Below, piece by piece: positions 4,975-10,744 of a stretch of 21,148 bases of DNA. This stretch comes from a virus: positions 1 to 21,148 of the IMG/VR virus record IMGVR_UViG_3300035698_008397; one strand, given 5' to 3'. Every line of letters starts with the position of its first letter. Positions within the stretch are counted from its first letter, which is position 1. A model generated the notes under the pieces. It was not told the origin of the DNA and did not search any database. It worked only from the letters and a program-made list of their open reading frames with translations. The translations under genes were made by a program, and so were the position numbers.

Positions 4975-5403
4975 ATGCCTGATCCAACACCAGCAATAAC
5001 ACCTGAGAAGCTGACAGCTCTTGATATGGCATGGCAATTAGGGCTAACAGACACAAATGCGTGTAAATTCGCCGAATTAGAACCAAGAGCGTTATACAGG
5101 CACCAAGAACGTAATCCAGAATACTGTCAGCACAAGCTTTACATGAAAGCTTACCCAAACATTAGAGCTGAACAGACGATAACTAATGACCTTGACTCTA
5201 TCTCTACAGCCAAGTGGTACGCAGAACGAACCATCGAGAAGTTTAAACCTAAGAAGGACATTAATGTTAATCACTACGCTGTGATATCAGACGAGCAGCT
5301 ACAGGCTAGAATAGAGCATTTATCCCATGCGCAGCTTGAGAACGACGCAGAAGAGGCAGAATATGAGGAAATCAGTGAAAATGACGAATCCACAAGTGGT
5401 TGA
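4975..5403 (+). CDS. Terminase small subunit
   Basis: 142 residues. The N-terminal part (about 8-45) is predicted to be helix-turn-helix (TALDMAWQLGLTDTNACKFA, then LEPRALYRHQERNPEY). It is followed by an AKWYAERTIEKFKPK motif (79-93) of the kind seen in small terminase subunits, and an acidic tail (about 118-140). It should recognise the packaging site on the concatemer and deliver DNA to the large subunit. Its position 0.9 kb upstream of the large terminase supports this. P22 gp3 is similar in size (162 residues). The ribosome site is weak. Confidence 0.75.
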   Translation: MPDPTPAITPEKLTALDMAWQLGLTDTNACKFAELEPRALYRHQERNPEYCQHKLYMKAYPNIRAEQTITNDLDSISTAKWYAERTIEKFKPKKDINVNHYAVISDEQLQARIEHLSHAQLENDAEEAEYEEISENDESTSG

Positions 5404-5739: not shown

Positions 5740-5872
5740 GGTTAAACCATACGCCAAGCCAGGGCTAACTCAGATAAACGTCTGGATTGCCTGGTTATGC
5801 TATTTATTTGCGGTTTTCTCTGGTGACCTGGCAGGGCTCGACCGGGGGCGGGGGGTGGATTTCCATGTGTGA
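5732..5872 (+). CDS. Small membrane protein (46 residues)
   Basis: The ATG at 5732 overlaps the end of the preceding mini-ORF. A short charged N-terminus is followed by a hydrophobic helix (INVWIAWLCYLFAVFSGDLAG, about 15-35), then a C-terminal LDRGRGVDF tail encoded by an unusually G-rich run. It lacks its own ribosome site. Function unknown. Confidence 0.45.
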   Translation: MDEVKPYAKPGLTQINVWIAWLCYLFAVFSGDLAGLDRGRGVDFHV

Positions 5873-5945
5873 TAATACGGTTACCTCCCCTATCTGTGTA
5901 TTATCTGAAACTGAGCGGTACCATATTATTGGTGTTCCGATATGA
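5865..5945 (+). CDS. Possible mini-ORF (26 residues)
   Basis: The ATG at 5865 overlaps the previous stop by eight bases, and the frame ends at TGA 5943-5945, overlapping the metallopeptidase ATG at 5942. No clear family and no strong ribosome site. It bridges the two genes without a gap, which may be its main effect. Confidence 0.3.
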   Translation: MCDNTVTSPICVLSETERYHIIGVPI

Positions 5946-6331
5946 ATCCTGAATACAAAGGCGTTTCGTATGATAGGCAGAAAAAAATGGAAATACCTAA
6001 AAAGCTAAAGATAGGCGGTCACAAGTTTGACGTTTTATTTCCATATGTTTTTACTGAAAGAACAGACCTTGTAGTTGGACAATGCCACACAGAGCAAAAC
6101 AGAATAAGAATTTCAAAAATAGATGGTACGGGAGAACTAATATCAGAATCGGGAATAAGTGTAACGTTGATACATGAAATTTTACATGCTGTTGATAATA
6201 TAACTGGTCATGGTGTGTTTTGTCAAAACGAAAAGGCGATAGAAGGTTTTAGTGAGTGCATGTATCAAATACTGGTCGATAATAAAGAGGCCATTTTAAA
6301 GTTTATAAATGGAACAAATGAATGGCCCTAA
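5942..6331 (+). CDS. Putative HExxH metallopeptidase-like phage protein
   Basis: 129 residues. LIHEILHAVD carries the HExxH zinc-binding motif (H78, E79, H82). An acidic helix downstream (NEKAIEGFSECMYQIL, E97 or E101) could supply the third ligand, as in gluzincins. The N-terminal IPKKLKIGGHKFDVLFPY followed by FTERTDL is a pattern I recall from small phage proteins of this type. Some homologues would start at the internal Met16 (5987). A role in processing a phage or host protein is inference. It overlaps the large terminase start by ten bases. Confidence 0.6.
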   Translation: MNPEYKGVSYDRQKKMEIPKKLKIGGHKFDVLFPYVFTERTDLVVGQCHTEQNRIRISKIDGTGELISESGISVTLIHEILHAVDNITGHGVFCQNEKAIEGFSECMYQILVDNKEAILKFINGTNEWP

Positions 6332-7059
6332 CTCGTAAACAATCTGAAGAATACCTTGCTTTATTAGAGGAGCAGGATAGGCGCAAGAAACAGAATAGGA
6401 TTTCTACGTTTTATCCAGACAAAGGGCCATTAAGTCGTGAATTTTATCCAAAACACATGGCATTCTTTGCAGCAGGGGAGGAACACAGGGAACGTGCTAT
6501 ACTCGCTGCGAATCGTGTGGGAAAATCTGATGGAATTGGGGGGTATGAAAGTTCTTTACATTTAACAGGGCAATATCCTAAATGGTGGGTTGGGAGAAGG
6601 TTTAAAGATCCTGTGAATGCTGTTGCTGCTGGTGACACCGGGACTACTGTAAGGGATATTGGTCAGAGTATATTATTGGGTCCGCCTGAAGCGCCCGGAA
6701 CAGGATTGGTGCCGGGTAAGTTTATTAAGAAGACTAGGCCTAAAGCTGGTGGAATACCGGACGCGATTGAGAGTGCCTATATTGAGCATACTTCTGGAGG
6801 GCTGAGCCGATTAGTTTTCAAGAGTTATGCTGAGGGTAGGGAAAGTTTCCAAGGGACTCGTAAGGACGTTATTTGGCTGGATGAGGAGCCTCCTGAGAGT
6901 ATATATGGAGAATGTTTAATGAGGACTATGGGAACGCCTATTTTTCCTCCCGGTATGATTTTATGCACATTTACGCCTTTATTGGGAATAAGCAATGTTG
7001 TTGATATGTTTTTACCTGATGGAGCTATTCCTGGGGAGATGGGAATGGTGGTGAATTGA
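6322..7059 (+). CDS. Terminase large subunit, N-terminal ATPase part (split gene)
   Basis: 245 residues holding the packaging motor ATPase: Walker A AANRVGKS (62-69), Walker B DVIWLDEEP (182-190) with the catalytic glutamate, and the coupling motif TPLLG (219-223, approximately). The ORF stops at TGA 7057-7059, just after the ATPase domain and before the strand that normally continues as (K/R)xVVMATWDD. The nuclease half is encoded separately at 7291-8013. The two parts total about 485 residues, close to P22 gp2 (499), so no domain is missing. Whether the parts act as two chains or are rejoined is unknown. Confidence 0.85.
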   Translation: MALTRKQSEEYLALLEEQDRRKKQNRISTFYPDKGPLSREFYPKHMAFFAAGEEHRERAILAANRVGKSDGIGGYESSLHLTGQYPKWWVGRRFKDPVNAVAAGDTGTTVRDIGQSILLGPPEAPGTGLVPGKFIKKTRPKAGGIPDAIESAYIEHTSGGLSRLVFKSYAEGRESFQGTRKDVIWLDEEPPESIYGECLMRTMGTPIFPPGMILCTFTPLLGISNVVDMFLPDGAIPGEMGMVVN

Positions 7060-7298
7060 TGAAATACAAGCACGTATCATATGGTTTAGGGTTTAGGGTA
7101 GACCGTAGCTCCCTACCTAAAACTTATGGCTGGTACACAAGGAATGGCAAGCGGAGGTTAAGGAATTACCATCGTGAGTTAAAAAATGGTATGGGTTTAA
7201 GTTTTACAGAGGTGCTTGTTGAAAAGTTCAAACAGAATTACGAGAACCTTCCAATACATTTTAAGCCTTTATTTAAAAAACGGCTAACATATGAGTAA
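7059..7298 (+). CDS. 79-residue ORF inserted between the terminase halves
   Basis: The ATG at 7059 overlaps the terminase TGA (TGATG) and the stop TAA 7296-7298 overlaps the ATG of the nuclease half. GGTGGTGA upstream is a fair ribosome site. The product is strongly basic (SLPKTYGWYTRNGKRRLRNY, then KRLTYE), which suits nucleic-acid binding. I see no HNH, GIY-YIG or LAGLIDADG motif and do not recognise the family. It is either a small selfish gene or a component of the packaging motor. An internal hairpin (TTTAGGGTAG, 7092-7101; CTACCTAAA, 7113-7121) lies near its 5' end. Confidence 0.6.
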   Translation: MKYKHVSYGLGFRVDRSSLPKTYGWYTRNGKRRLRNYHRELKNGMGLSFTEVLVEKFKQNYENLPIHFKPLFKKRLTYE

Positions 7299-8013
7299 AT
7301 TCGTAATAATGGCAACTTGGCAAGATGCCCCACACCTTTCCGAAAAGGAAAAGGCTGATTTATTAAGCGAAATTCCGCATTATCAGCGTGATGCCCGCAC
7401 AAAGGGTATTCCTCAGTTGGGTTCGGGTGTGATTTATCCTATGGACGAAGAGGATATTGTTGTTAAGGATATGGAAATACCTCTTTGGTATAAAAAGATT
7501 TACGGATTTGATGTTGGTTGGAATTTCACTGCTGCTGTTTGGATAGCGATTAACCCTGAAGATGATGTTGCTTATATATATTCGGTTTACAAGCGCAGTA
7601 AGGCCGAGCCTATCATTCACGCTGCTGCTATAAAGTCTAGGGGATGGTGGATACCTGGAGCTATTGATCCTGCATCTACTGGGAGTTCACAACGCGATGG
7701 TAAAAAACTGATAGATGATTACGAAGGATTGGAATTGAATTTATTTTATGCAGACAATGCTGTTGATGCCGGATTACAAAAGGTTTGGCAAGCACTATCT
7801 ACTGGAAAATTAAAGGTATTTAAAAGCTGTTTGCCTTGGTTTGAGGAATTTAGGCGCTATGCAAGAGATGTAAAGGGTAAAATAATTAAAAGGAACGATC
7901 ATTTAATGGATGCAACACGTTATGCGGTGATGAGTTTGGATATGGCGGAAGAAAAACCTGATGAGGATGAGATTAATGTTGACACACAGAGAAAAGTAGC
8001 GTATGCGTGGTAG
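7291..8013 (+). CDS. Terminase large subunit, C-terminal nuclease part (split gene)
   Basis: 240 residues beginning SKFVIMATWQDAPHLSEKEK, the conserved linker region that normally follows the ATPase domain, then QRDARTKGIPQLGSGVIYP. The RNase H-like nuclease motifs are present: GFDVGW (D74), GAIDPAS (D126) and the last acidic residue in NDHLMDATRY (D203 or D207). It would cut the concatemer at the start and end of headful packaging. The ATG overlaps the stop of the inserted ORF and there is no separate ribosome site, so coupling is likely. It is in the same frame as the ATPase half. Confidence 0.85.
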   Translation: MSKFVIMATWQDAPHLSEKEKADLLSEIPHYQRDARTKGIPQLGSGVIYPMDEEDIVVKDMEIPLWYKKIYGFDVGWNFTAAVWIAINPEDDVAYIYSVYKRSKAEPIIHAAAIKSRGWWIPGAIDPASTGSSQRDGKKLIDDYEGLELNLFYADNAVDAGLQKVWQALSTGKLKVFKSCLPWFEEFRRYARDVKGKIIKRNDHLMDATRYAVMSLDMAEEKPDEDEINVDTQRKVAYAW

Positions 8014-8047: not shown

Positions 8048-8281
8048 ATGAGAAATCTAAAAGAAATGAGGATTCCAGCAAGAACACCACGACCCAATGA
8101 CCCTGATTACTGGAAAGAAGAAATTCTTATAGATGCCAATAGGTTTGGGAGGGATGTAGTCTCGACTGATGGGTGCTACAAAGAACCCACATTGGTTGCA
8201 AAAAGATTTAAAAATATGCTTGAACGAATTACCTCTAAAGAGCATGTTAAAACTTTATACGTAAGGACGGTGAGTGGATAA
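8048..8281 (+). CDS. Hypothetical protein before the portal
   Basis: 77 residues, basic overall, with an N-terminal RIPARTPRPNDPDYWKEE stretch. The purine-rich leader contains repeats of AGTAGAA (8015-8040) but no clean ribosome site. It overlaps the portal GTG start by eight bases. Family not recognised. Confidence 0.5.
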   Translation: MRNLKEMRIPARTPRPNDPDYWKEEILIDANRFGRDVVSTDGCYKEPTLVAKRFKNMLERITSKEHVKTLYVRTVSG

Positions 8282-10295
8282 ACTACAAAAGTACATGGAA
8301 ATGCCAAACATTGCCGACTCGTTAAATAAATCTGAGGACGGCAAGAGACTTCTTGGTGAAATCGGTATGAGGGTCGATGAAGAGTTTAAAATTGATGACC
8401 AAAGCCGTAGGGATAGTGGATGGTTGACTCGTCAAGAAGAGGCAATGAATTTAACAATGCAAGTTGAGGACATTAAAAGCGAACCTTGGCCCGGTGCTGC
8501 TAATGTAAAATATCCGCTTCTCACTACCGCTTGTGTGCAATTTTCAGCAAGGGCGCTCCCTAATATTATAAAAGGCCGGGACATTGTAAAGGGCAAAGTC
8601 ACAGGCAAGGATGAGAATGGGAAGAAAGCGGCACGTGCAGCACGAATTTCTGAGTTCATGTCTTATCAATTCACGGAACTTATGCCTGATTGGATGGAGA
8701 ATAATGATAAACTATTAACTTCATTGCCGATAACAGGCTGTATGTTCAAGAAAACATTCTATTCTCCGGTTGCAGGAACTAACATATCAGAGAGAATTTT
8801 TCCCAAAGACCTTGTAATGCACTATAAAACAAAAAGCATGGAGAGATGTTTTCGTAAAACTCACATAATTGAATTATATCCTAACGAGATTGAGGAACGT
8901 ATTCGTAGTGGGTTATTTTTAGAATATGATTATCAGAGAGCGTCAGGCGATGACGGCAGAGAAAATGACGAAGATGCTCCTCATACTTTTTACGAGCAAC
9001 ACAGATTATGGGATTTAGACGATGATGGATATAAAGAACCTTACATTGTCACATATCACAAAGACAGCCAGAAGGTTGCCAGGATAGTAGCTGGATATGA
9101 CATTGATTCAATATCCGCTTCCGCTAAAAACAATCTATCAGCCAAGCGTGGAAAGGTACAAAGAATAGAACCTATTGAATACTTTACTAAATTCCCATTT
9201 ATGCCTTCCCCGGATGGATCTATATACGATATTGGATTCGGTACGTTACAAACTCCAATTAATAAAATCATAAATCAAGCAACAAATTTACTTTTAGACA
9301 GCGGTACAATTGCGACTCTTGGAGGTGGTTTTCTGGGGCGCGGGATTAATCTCGGAAGAAACAGGGATTCAGGGCCGATACTCTTCAAACCCGGAGAATG
9401 GAAAAGCATTAAGGTTTCCGGCGATGATTTAAGAAAAGGGATAGTTCCATTGCCGGTTAAAGAACCTTCAAACGTATTATTTTTATTACTTGGTATGATG
9501 ATTGAAGCTGGTGAGAAAATGTCTTCTGTAGCCGATGTGCTTACCGGGGAGTCTCCCGGTCAAGAAGTTCCAGCCACAACAACACTGGCGCTTATCGAAC
9601 AGGGACTAAAGGTTTTCAACGCTGTATATGGGCGAGTTCATAGGAGTTTAGCGTCTGAATTTAAAAAACATTATAAATTAAATAAAAAACATTTGGCTCC
9701 ACACACATATTATACTGTTGGTGACGATGTAAAAGAAATGCCAAGGAAAGAGTTTGATGATTCTGATTGTGATGTGCAGCCCGTCAGCGATCCAACGGAA
9801 TCCACCGACACACAGAGGCTTATTAAGGCTGAAGCCCTAGGTAGTATGATGGGTCAGGGATTGAATGATAAAAAAATACAGCGCAGAAAACTTGAAGCGA
9901 TGAACATACCGGATATTGATGAGTTGTTGGTGGATGATGATGGTAAGCCGATACCCCCTCCACAAGATCCAAAGGCTGTTGCTGAACAGCAAAAACAGCA
10001 AATGGAACAACAGAAGGTGCAAATGGAAGCGCAATTTAAACAACAGGAACATCAATTAAAGGTTGCTGAATTTCAGATGAAATTTGAAAAGAACCAACAG
10101 GACATTATTGAATCACGAACAAAATGTATTCTTAATATAGCAAAAGCAGAAGCGGCTGAGAATGGGCCACAGGTAGATATGTATAAGACACAATTAAAAA
10201 GTATAGACGAGAGGTATAAGGCAAATGCACAAAGGATGGTTGCAGCAAGAGGAAACGCAGCGGGTGGTCAAGGAAATGGAGCGCCAAATTCTTGA
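8274..10295 (+). CDS. Portal protein (P22-like)
   Basis: 673 residues, started at GTG 8274 because AAGGA lies about eight bases upstream. The N-terminal region contains EPWPGAANVKYPLLTTAC and ARALPNI, typical of podovirus portals. The body has long helices around a P-D-G-S-I-Y-D-I-G-F-G stretch (about 310-325). The C-terminal tail (about 565-640) is a glutamine-rich coiled coil (EQQKQQMEQQKVQMEAQ), reminiscent of the P22 portal barrel. It forms the dodecameric ring through which terminase packs DNA and to which the tail attaches. P22 gp1 has 725 residues. Confidence 0.85.
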   Translation: MDKLQKYMEMPNIADSLNKSEDGKRLLGEIGMRVDEEFKIDDQSRRDSGWLTRQEEAMNLTMQVEDIKSEPWPGAANVKYPLLTTACVQFSARALPNIIKGRDIVKGKVTGKDENGKKAARAARISEFMSYQFTELMPDWMENNDKLLTSLPITGCMFKKTFYSPVAGTNISERIFPKDLVMHYKTKSMERCFRKTHIIELYPNEIEERIRSGLFLEYDYQRASGDDGRENDEDAPHTFYEQHRLWDLDDDGYKEPYIVTYHKDSQKVARIVAGYDIDSISASAKNNLSAKRGKVQRIEPIEYFTKFPFMPSPDGSIYDIGFGTLQTPINKIINQATNLLLDSGTIATLGGGFLGRGINLGRNRDSGPILFKPGEWKSIKVSGDDLRKGIVPLPVKEPSNVLFLLLGMMIEAGEKMSSVADVLTGESPGQEVPATTTLALIEQGLKVFNAVYGRVHRSLASEFKKHYKLNKKHLAPHTYYTVGDDVKEMPRKEFDDSDCDVQPVSDPTESTDTQRLIKAEALGSMMGQGLNDKKIQRRKLEAMNIPDIDELLVDDDGKPIPPPQDPKAVAEQQKQQMEQQKVQMEAQFKQQEHQLKVAEFQMKFEKNQQDIIESRTKCILNIAKAEAAENGPQVDMYKTQLKSIDERYKANAQRMVAARGNAAGGQGNGAPNS

Positions 10296-10449
10296 GAAAG
10301 CCTATGAGATAGGTAGTGGGGTGGCGTTACGTGATACTGCTGATGAGACAGCGATAAAATATGCCACTGAGGTTGGAGAAGTTTCAGGTATGCAACACAG
10401 TCTTGATTTTTTAAGAGAGGGGTTTAATGATGAAGATAATTCCAGTTGA
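10276..10449 (+). CDS. Small hypothetical protein overlapping the portal end
   Basis: The frame overlaps the portal stop. I place the start at ATG 10276 (57 residues), though GTG 10264 or ATG 10225 are in frame. The product is helical and acidic (EIGSGVALRDTADETAIKYA, then LDFLREGFNDED). No family is recognised. It ends inside the co-chaperonin gene's start region. Confidence 0.45.
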   Translation: MERQILEKAYEIGSGVALRDTADETAIKYATEVGEVSGMQHSLDFLREGFNDEDNSS

Positions 10450-10744
10450 GTATAAATGTTTAATAGAGTTAGAGGAAATTGAGAAAGTGTCAGCCGGTGG
10501 AATACTTTTACCGGAATCAGCAAAGGAAACAGCGGCATATAGGCAAGAGGTAGGAACGCTCCTCGCATGTGGTTCAAGAGCATTTGAGGATTGGGGAGTC
10601 GGGAATATACCGAAAATAGGGGATAGAATTTTGATTAATAAATATTCAGGTGCCACGATTCAATTGTCAGTAGGAGCGAGGATGACATTACGCCTGGTAA
10701 ACGATAAAGATATAACAGCTATATTGGAGGAAGATGATGGATAG
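10427..10744 (+). CDS. GroES-like (Cpn10) phage co-chaperonin
   Basis: About 105 residues. The Cpn10 landmarks are all present: the mobile-loop segment KVSAGGILLPE (20-30) with the hydrophobic I-L-L tripeptide that docks to GroEL, the central KIGDRILINKYSGA (63-76), and the closing LRLVNDKDITAIL (88-100). Phage co-chaperonins such as T4 gp31 cap host GroEL to fold the capsid protein. The position between portal and scaffold fits a head-assembly role. AGAGAGGGG lies upstream of two tandem ATGs (10427 and 10430). No GroEL gene is seen here, so it should use the host chaperonin. Confidence 0.8.
   Translation: MMKIIPVEYKCLIELEEIEKVSAGGILLPESAKETAAYRQEVGTLLACGSRAFEDWGVGNIPKIGDRILINKYSGATIQLSVGARMTLRLVNDKDITAILEEDDG

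Follow-up and report, generated by a model that had tools for sequence, protein, structure and literature searches.

The phage represented by the 21,148 nt of DNA analyzed here (hereafter "the window", which is one metagenomic contig from a 21.1-kb viral record) very probably encodes its large terminase as "genes in pieces", with the packaging motor predicted to be made as two chains. The large terminase (TerL) is the core ATPase and nuclease of DNA packaging as well as a standard single-gene marker in phage phylogeny, and in textbook phages it is one protein. In the window, the enzyme is divided between two ORFs, referred to here as the N-half and the C-half, with a 79-codon ORF (P0001) between them that overlaps both:

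4975..5403, plus strand: probable small terminase subunit (142 aa), assigned by position and size, with no Pfam match
6322..7059, plus strand: TerL N-half (245 aa), nucleotide-binding core of the packaging ATPase (Terminase_6N, 3e-10)
7057..7061, plus strand: TGATG, in which the N-half stop and the ATG of the 79-aa ORF overlap
7057..7292, plus strand: 236-nt segment present in the window and absent at the same junction of its sister, L013
7059..7298, plus strand: orphan basic ORF of 79 aa (P0001), from ATG at 7059 to TAA at 7298, called from coding statistics
7291..7298, plus strand: the ATGAGTAA octamer, in which the start of the C-half overlaps the stop of the 79-aa ORF
7291..8013, plus strand: TerL C-half (240 aa), predicted last ATPase strand and lid region, followed by the RNase H-like nuclease
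8274..10295, plus strand: portal protein (673 aa; SU10_portal, 1.5e-7)

The boundaries of the three ORFs (6322–7059, 7059–7298, and 7291–8013) and the two overlaps, TGATG at 7057–7061 and ATGAGTAA at 7291–7298, had been described in an earlier sequence-only reading of this DNA and proved exact upon re-checking. That reading had also described both halves as complete, in the same frame, and in possession of their catalytic motifs. Pfam places the N-half in Terminase_6N and the C-half in Terminase_6C (2.2e-16). The N-half has Walker A (ANRVGKS), Walker B (VIWLDEE), and motif III (TFTPL) sequences and aligns with intact relatives; in PHROGs it matches phrog_31467 (3.6e-51), so that the first piece of TerL carries the label "unknown function" in an annotation library. 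The nuclease motifs of the C-half (GFDVGW, GAIDPAS, and NDHLMD) align with those of relatives, and the RNase H-like acidic residues are present. The window therefore has the ATPase motifs and the nuclease (Terminase_6N/6C) of a P22-like large terminase, on two ORFs with stops between them rather than on a single polypeptide. The N- and C-halves share one frame, and the 79-aa ORF lies in another. The N-half stop (TGA, 7057–7059) begins a tandem TGATGA at 7057–7062 when read in the N-half frame, and this frame meets nine stops before the C-half, the first of which are UGA UGA, so that an intein and simple readthrough are excluded. An intein is also at odds with an insert ORF in another frame and with the stops that end both the N-half and the insert ORF.

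As a reference fold, we used an AlphaFold model of the intact TerL of a relative (L008), which was built from a 44-sequence alignment and has a mean pLDDT of 87. In this model, motif III lies on strand 214–219 and is followed by helix 227–232, loop 233–246, strand 247–252, and helices 262–282, which we read as the lid; the linker between the ATPase and the nuclease spans approximately residues 283–297, with low confidence near 287–289, and the first nuclease strand is 313–319. On this predicted fold, the split maps to the surface loop 233–246, within the ATPase domain and upstream of its last core strand and the lid helices, and not to the inter-domain linker, where the sequence-only reading had mistakenly placed it. 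The Pfam ATPase profile bridges the break, with positions 2–146 in the N-half and 163–213 in the C-half, the latter share being weak (E = 0.14, below the cut-off). The structure of the P22 nuclease domain (4dkw), which the family profile matches at 2.9e-37, starts about 40 residues beyond the break, and the nearest solved structures according to Foldseek are the terminases of D6E, P22, T4, HK97, and P74-26. Because the cut precedes the last ATPase strand and the lid, the missing part of the ATPase fold would have to be supplied in trans by the C-half.

The same break recurs among relatives of this phage. Relatives were gathered with four scans of viral contigs (two with single-half queries and two with half-alignment queries), one scan of genome contigs, and a search of annotated phages, and profile HMMs of each half were run on stop-to-stop ORFs. 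Both halves were found at 227 distinct loci, in one ORF at 144 of them and in two ORFs at 83, including the window; the resulting 37% is a proportion within a sample picked by similarity. The N profile ended at positions 216–227 in all 83 splits and the C profile started at positions 1–3 in 82 of them and at position 9 in one, while breaks inside a half were found at only two loci (L043, which is also among the 83, and L111). At 41 of the 83 junctions there is no insert, and the start of the C-half overlaps or abuts the stop of the N-half; these include 24 overlaps of four bases (the ATGA type), seven of one base, and five of eight bases. The remaining splits comprise three short gaps, 36 inserts that range in length from 60 nt to about 2.8 kb, and three junctions without a recognized start codon. 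Both halves are still retained where they are as much as 2.8 kb or other genes apart, and split and intact genes are alike in how often they preserve the Walker A, Walker B, motif III, and nuclease motifs. In one pair of split loci (L022 and L024), omega was 0.006 for one half and 0.009 for the other, and in split pairs from Halomonadaceae prophages it was 0.15–0.25; this purifying selection on both halves indicates that the genes are not decaying. As expected of genes in pieces, two ORFs span the whole enzyme and each is conserved. The break therefore looks like a stable, recurring form of the gene, neither an error nor an intron, and this survey of the insertion site, with 83 of 227 loci split there and half of those with nothing between, backs the two-chain motor that had been one of the options in the earlier reading. 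Among annotated phages the split form looks rare, as the 60 records listed from a spread of 425 were all one-piece matches and the split was seen only in MW202785.1.

This survey also bears on two rival explanations. An error of sequencing or assembly is conceivable for a window that is a single metagenomic contig, as is a defective phage whose terminase has decayed, but we regard both as exceedingly improbable. The locus has two independent clean stop/start overlaps, and random frameshifts, sequencing errors, and decay are ruled out by a single break site in 83 relatives with only two loci broken elsewhere; strong purifying selection on the halves of split pairs and the intact structural genes around the locus also speak against them. 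Almost as improbable is the production of one chain through programmed frameshifting, stop readthrough, or ribosome hopping. This would fit the shared frame of the N- and C-halves in the window and the common offset of 33 of the 44 relatives with little or no insert. However, ten of these 44 have an offset of the other sign and one has none, which speaks against programmed frameshifting as a conserved feature, and the run of N-frame stops as well as inserts of up to 2.8 kb, which would demand very long hops, are further difficulties.

The sister of the window is L013 (support 92/90 in a careful 38-row tree). Here the N-half is joined straight to the C-half by the ATGAGTAA octamer, with no insert and with the halves in different frames, and because the junction is the same without an insert, the break probably predates the 79-aa ORF. 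The simplest history, which the sequences make probable but not certain, is thus that the split came first and the insert second: in the ancestor shared with L013, the halves would already have overlapped at ATGAGTAA, and the segment of 236 nt at 7057–7292 that carries the 79-aa ORF would have been inserted afterwards. This order depends on the 38-row tree, as the nearest row to the window in a 222-row FastTree is an intact locus, L214, rather than L013. Over the 222-row tree, at least 30 changes between split and intact are required, with 15 of them forced by well-supported branches, compared with 65 for shuffled labels. For the wider family, the modeling is compatible with both fission and fusion: with a midpoint root, fission-only and fusion-only models differ by about 3 log units and are not separated, and with a root on distant intact rows a two-state model estimates both directions (0.48 and 0.32). 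The split state of the terminase is recurrent and probably reversible.

The sister locus is also relevant to the possibility that the insert is an intervening RNA of 237 nt, namely a small group I-like self-splicing intron whose removal would restore one TerL chain. The arithmetic given for this in the earlier reading is correct: 237 nt is divisible by three, a U at 7056 stands before the 5' end and a G at 7293 is the last base, and a splice of 7056 to 7294 would restore the frame. Spliced terL genes also have precedents in ICP1 (PMC10448857) and the Jug phages (PMC12363816). However, that reading had recognized no group I intron core, and neither did Rfam, which gave no match to E = 5 at the locus (6900–7500) and none at the gathering threshold in the window. 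Intron models gave nothing above threshold around terL in 20 further split loci, the RNA fold energy is ordinary (z = −1.33), an ORF with gene-like codon usage occupies the entire insert, and the halves of 41 relatives overlap or abut directly. In L013, which is split without an insert and with halves in different frames, there is nothing to splice. A removable RNA is therefore unsupported, and we consider it very unlikely.

The 79-aa ORF itself is probably translated, as judged from its sequence, because an open frame of this length is rare by chance (0.25% of simulations per given frame at this composition) and its in-frame codon usage resembles that of neighboring genes, with a score of 0.003 per codon compared with approximately −0.46 in the other forward frames. 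No relatives of the protein were found in Pfam, NCBIfam, the PDB, annotated phages (tblastn), or the viral-contig scans, and one plasmid match was non-significant. PHROGs gave a weak match to phrog_3618, a family of unknown function (E = 0.0075, over the 22 residues 15–36), and the phrog_3618 profile had no match in related phages and equally none in control genomes, so that its absence from the relatives carries no information. A single-sequence AlphaFold prediction is helical, with a confidence too low to be informative (pLDDT 52). We also considered the ORF in the gap of L176 as a relative, but the likeness covers 16 residues (RYKNVAYGMGFEV versus KYKHVSYGLGFRV) at an E-value of about 5 and is not significant, and a viral-contig scan built on this stretch found nothing.

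Across relatives, the inserts at the junction, some of them nuclease genes and others encoding small proteins, are mostly unrelated to one another. The following were found between the halves:

L113, L205, L223, and L272: HNH or endonuclease VII genes
L001: AP2/HNH fragment
L065: GroES
L204: IS110-type transposase
L059: weakly holin-like ORF
L275: tail-fiber-like protein
L247:4708-4968, L263:4654-4887, and L272:5013-5207: homologous protein of 64–86 aa in three Halomonadaceae prophages

These contents suggest that the break in the loop is tolerated as a slot in which passenger genes would come and go. Because such varied genes fill the slot elsewhere, we take the 79-aa ORF to be, most likely, a passenger that occupies a reusable slot and is not needed to join the halves. 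The "tiny selfish ORF" of the earlier reading survives in part, in that a slot passenger is plausible and nuclease genes occupy the slot elsewhere, while the ORF itself carries no nuclease signature. Several further observations were made on the contents of the slot. The transposase-like ORF of L204 lies in a 1.9-kb gap (L204:3709-5656) between arrays of short repeats ("SEPxxREP" or "ERAxxxERT"). L022 and L024 come from one metagenome and have nearly identical TerL halves (dN 0.004) and unrelated gap contents, which are a 59-aa ORF in L022 (4672–4857) and, in L024 (756–854), roughly 76 nt in which the end of the N-half (AATTGAGGAAAACC.CAAA) occurs a second time. The slot protein of the Halomonadaceae prophages had no match in PHROGs in the two members scanned, and L282, from Kushneria aurantia DSM 21353, has a bare ATGA junction, unlike the three prophages with the protein, of which L263 and L272 belong to Halomonas/Chromohalobacter strains.

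The nuclease genes in the slot raise the question of whether an HNH-type homing gene invaded and split terL, leaving the 79-aa ORF as its decayed remnant. In addition to the slot genes of L113, L205, L223, and L272 and the AP2/HNH fragment of L001, residues 22–36 of P0001 (TYGWYTRNGKRRLRN) weakly resemble the "YTTxxGKRSxR" of slot HNH proteins. We did not accept this likeness, which amounts to 2.7 bits and ranks 21 of 2001 against shuffles. The earlier reading had found no homing-nuclease motif in the ORF, and this holds: it has no HNH, Cys, or GIY-YIG motifs, Pfam and NCBIfam were empty, and phrog_3618 was the only PHROGs match. An endonuclease is also not needed to keep the split, because L013 and half of all splits have no insert, and we therefore regard an HNH remnant as unlikely. 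More doubtful still is the idea that the terminase has the 79-aa protein as a working third subunit, acting as a bridge between the two chains or as their regulator. The ORF fits the halves perfectly, with predicted translational coupling at both ends, and the prophages L247, L263, and L272 conserve a different small protein in the same slot; yet a small protein is missing from the sister of the window and from 40 further split loci, most inserts show no relationship from one phage to the next, and no relative of P0001 was found.

With the 79-aa ORF as a passenger, a two-chain motor could be made as follows. The N-half, the 79-aa protein, and the C-half would all be made from one mRNA, with ribosomes that finish an upstream ORF re-initiating at the overlapping ATG through termination-reinitiation coupling, so that the passenger would be co-expressed with the packaging genes. 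Shine-Dalgarno-like sequences precede the C-half in 37 of 80 split loci and in 52 of 144 intact ones, which is no clear enrichment, and independent initiation therefore rests on coupling. The C-half would contribute the last ATPase strand and the lid, the two chains would join non-covalently as one motor subunit, and a ring of such subunits would work at the portal, as in other phages. We further propose, tentatively, that for this P22-like terminase family a two-chain TerL is a normal condition, reversible and possibly favored by selection, with the ATPase core completed in trans by the strand and lid of the nuclease chain and the break serving as a standing slot for passengers; in the strongest form of this proposal, the two-chain state may alter motor regulation, for example if translational coupling fixes how many ATPase chains are made per nuclease chain. 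Many uncultured phages and prophages have TerL as two genes cut within the ATPase domain, and if the chains cooperate, these amount to many natural split-motor experiments on the communication between lid, core, and nuclease. For genome surveys, such phages should not be dropped as terminase-less, nor should the break be called an intron.

The surrounding genome encodes an ordinary podovirus-like set of head and tail genes, including a Mu gpT-like coat protein. GroES-like genes accompany the packaging module in L065 (2691–2987), the window (10427–10744), and L001 (7046–7369), lying between the terL halves in L065 and 3' of the portal gene in the window and in MW202785.1. Upstream of the N-half, an ORF at 5942–6331 encodes an HExxH motif (HEILHA) with a weak SprT-like match (0.0046, below the cut-off) and overlaps the start of terL by 10 bases. 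A short G+C-rich stretch at 5826–5860 (gaccgggggcggggggtgga), which lies 5' of the packaging genes in an otherwise A+T-rich genome, could be a junction or site. The early region encodes a DnaJ-domain-like protein on the minus strand (1807–2295; 2e-4, below the curated cut-off), and the related podovirus MW202738.1 has a "dnaj domain" gene near terL too.

A two-gene TerL of this pattern was not found described in the open-access literature, which was the scope of our search (subscription papers lay outside it), but several known systems can be compared with it. To the same family belong gp2 of P22 and related single-chain large terminases. P22 TerL aligns with an intact relative at 35% identity and its nuclease structure 4dkw is matched here, but it is one polypeptide, whereas that of the window is two ORFs. 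TerL is also annotated as two CDS in phiPDS1 (MN929097), an isolated infective phage of Parabacteroides, for which its authors raised the codon table or the assembly as a suspected cause (PMC10773633). The two CDS of phiPDS1 (L294:23502-25054) are 337 and 148 aa and lie 92 nt apart; these lengths differ from those of the window and point to another break site. The terL genes of ICP1 (PMC10448857) and Jug-phage (PMC12363816) are likewise annotated in at least two pieces, with homing endonucleases nearby in places, but RNA evidence shows that they are interrupted by introns and spliced to give one chain, whereas the window has no detectable intron and the halves of its sister L013 are overlapping and out of frame.

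Precedents for the assembly of an enzyme from separately encoded pieces are the split NrdA of Aeromonas phage Aeh1, which arose by insertion of MobE, gp43A/B of phage 25, and the topoisomerase of T4 (PMC2988022). As in the window, the NrdA of Aeh1 is an essential phage enzyme encoded as two separately translated chains, and its pieces are functional together (PMC2988022). The enzyme here is the DNA-packaging motor, and the homing endonuclease that usually, though not universally, lies between such pieces, and that occupies the split in Aeh1, is absent from the window, which has a non-nuclease orphan ORF instead; in half of the split relatives nothing lies between the pieces. The split polymerase of the T4-related Aeromonas phages 25 and 44RR offers a further parallel, as gp43A and gp43B co-purify and are active, related phages split one gene with differing material in the gap, and the mobile gene may have entered a gene that was already split (PMC2988022). 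While that split was reported for two phages, the TerL split was found at 83 loci, with many switches of state and often a bare ATGA. The slot in TerL recalls the invasion of already split T4-type polymerase genes, with many more examples.
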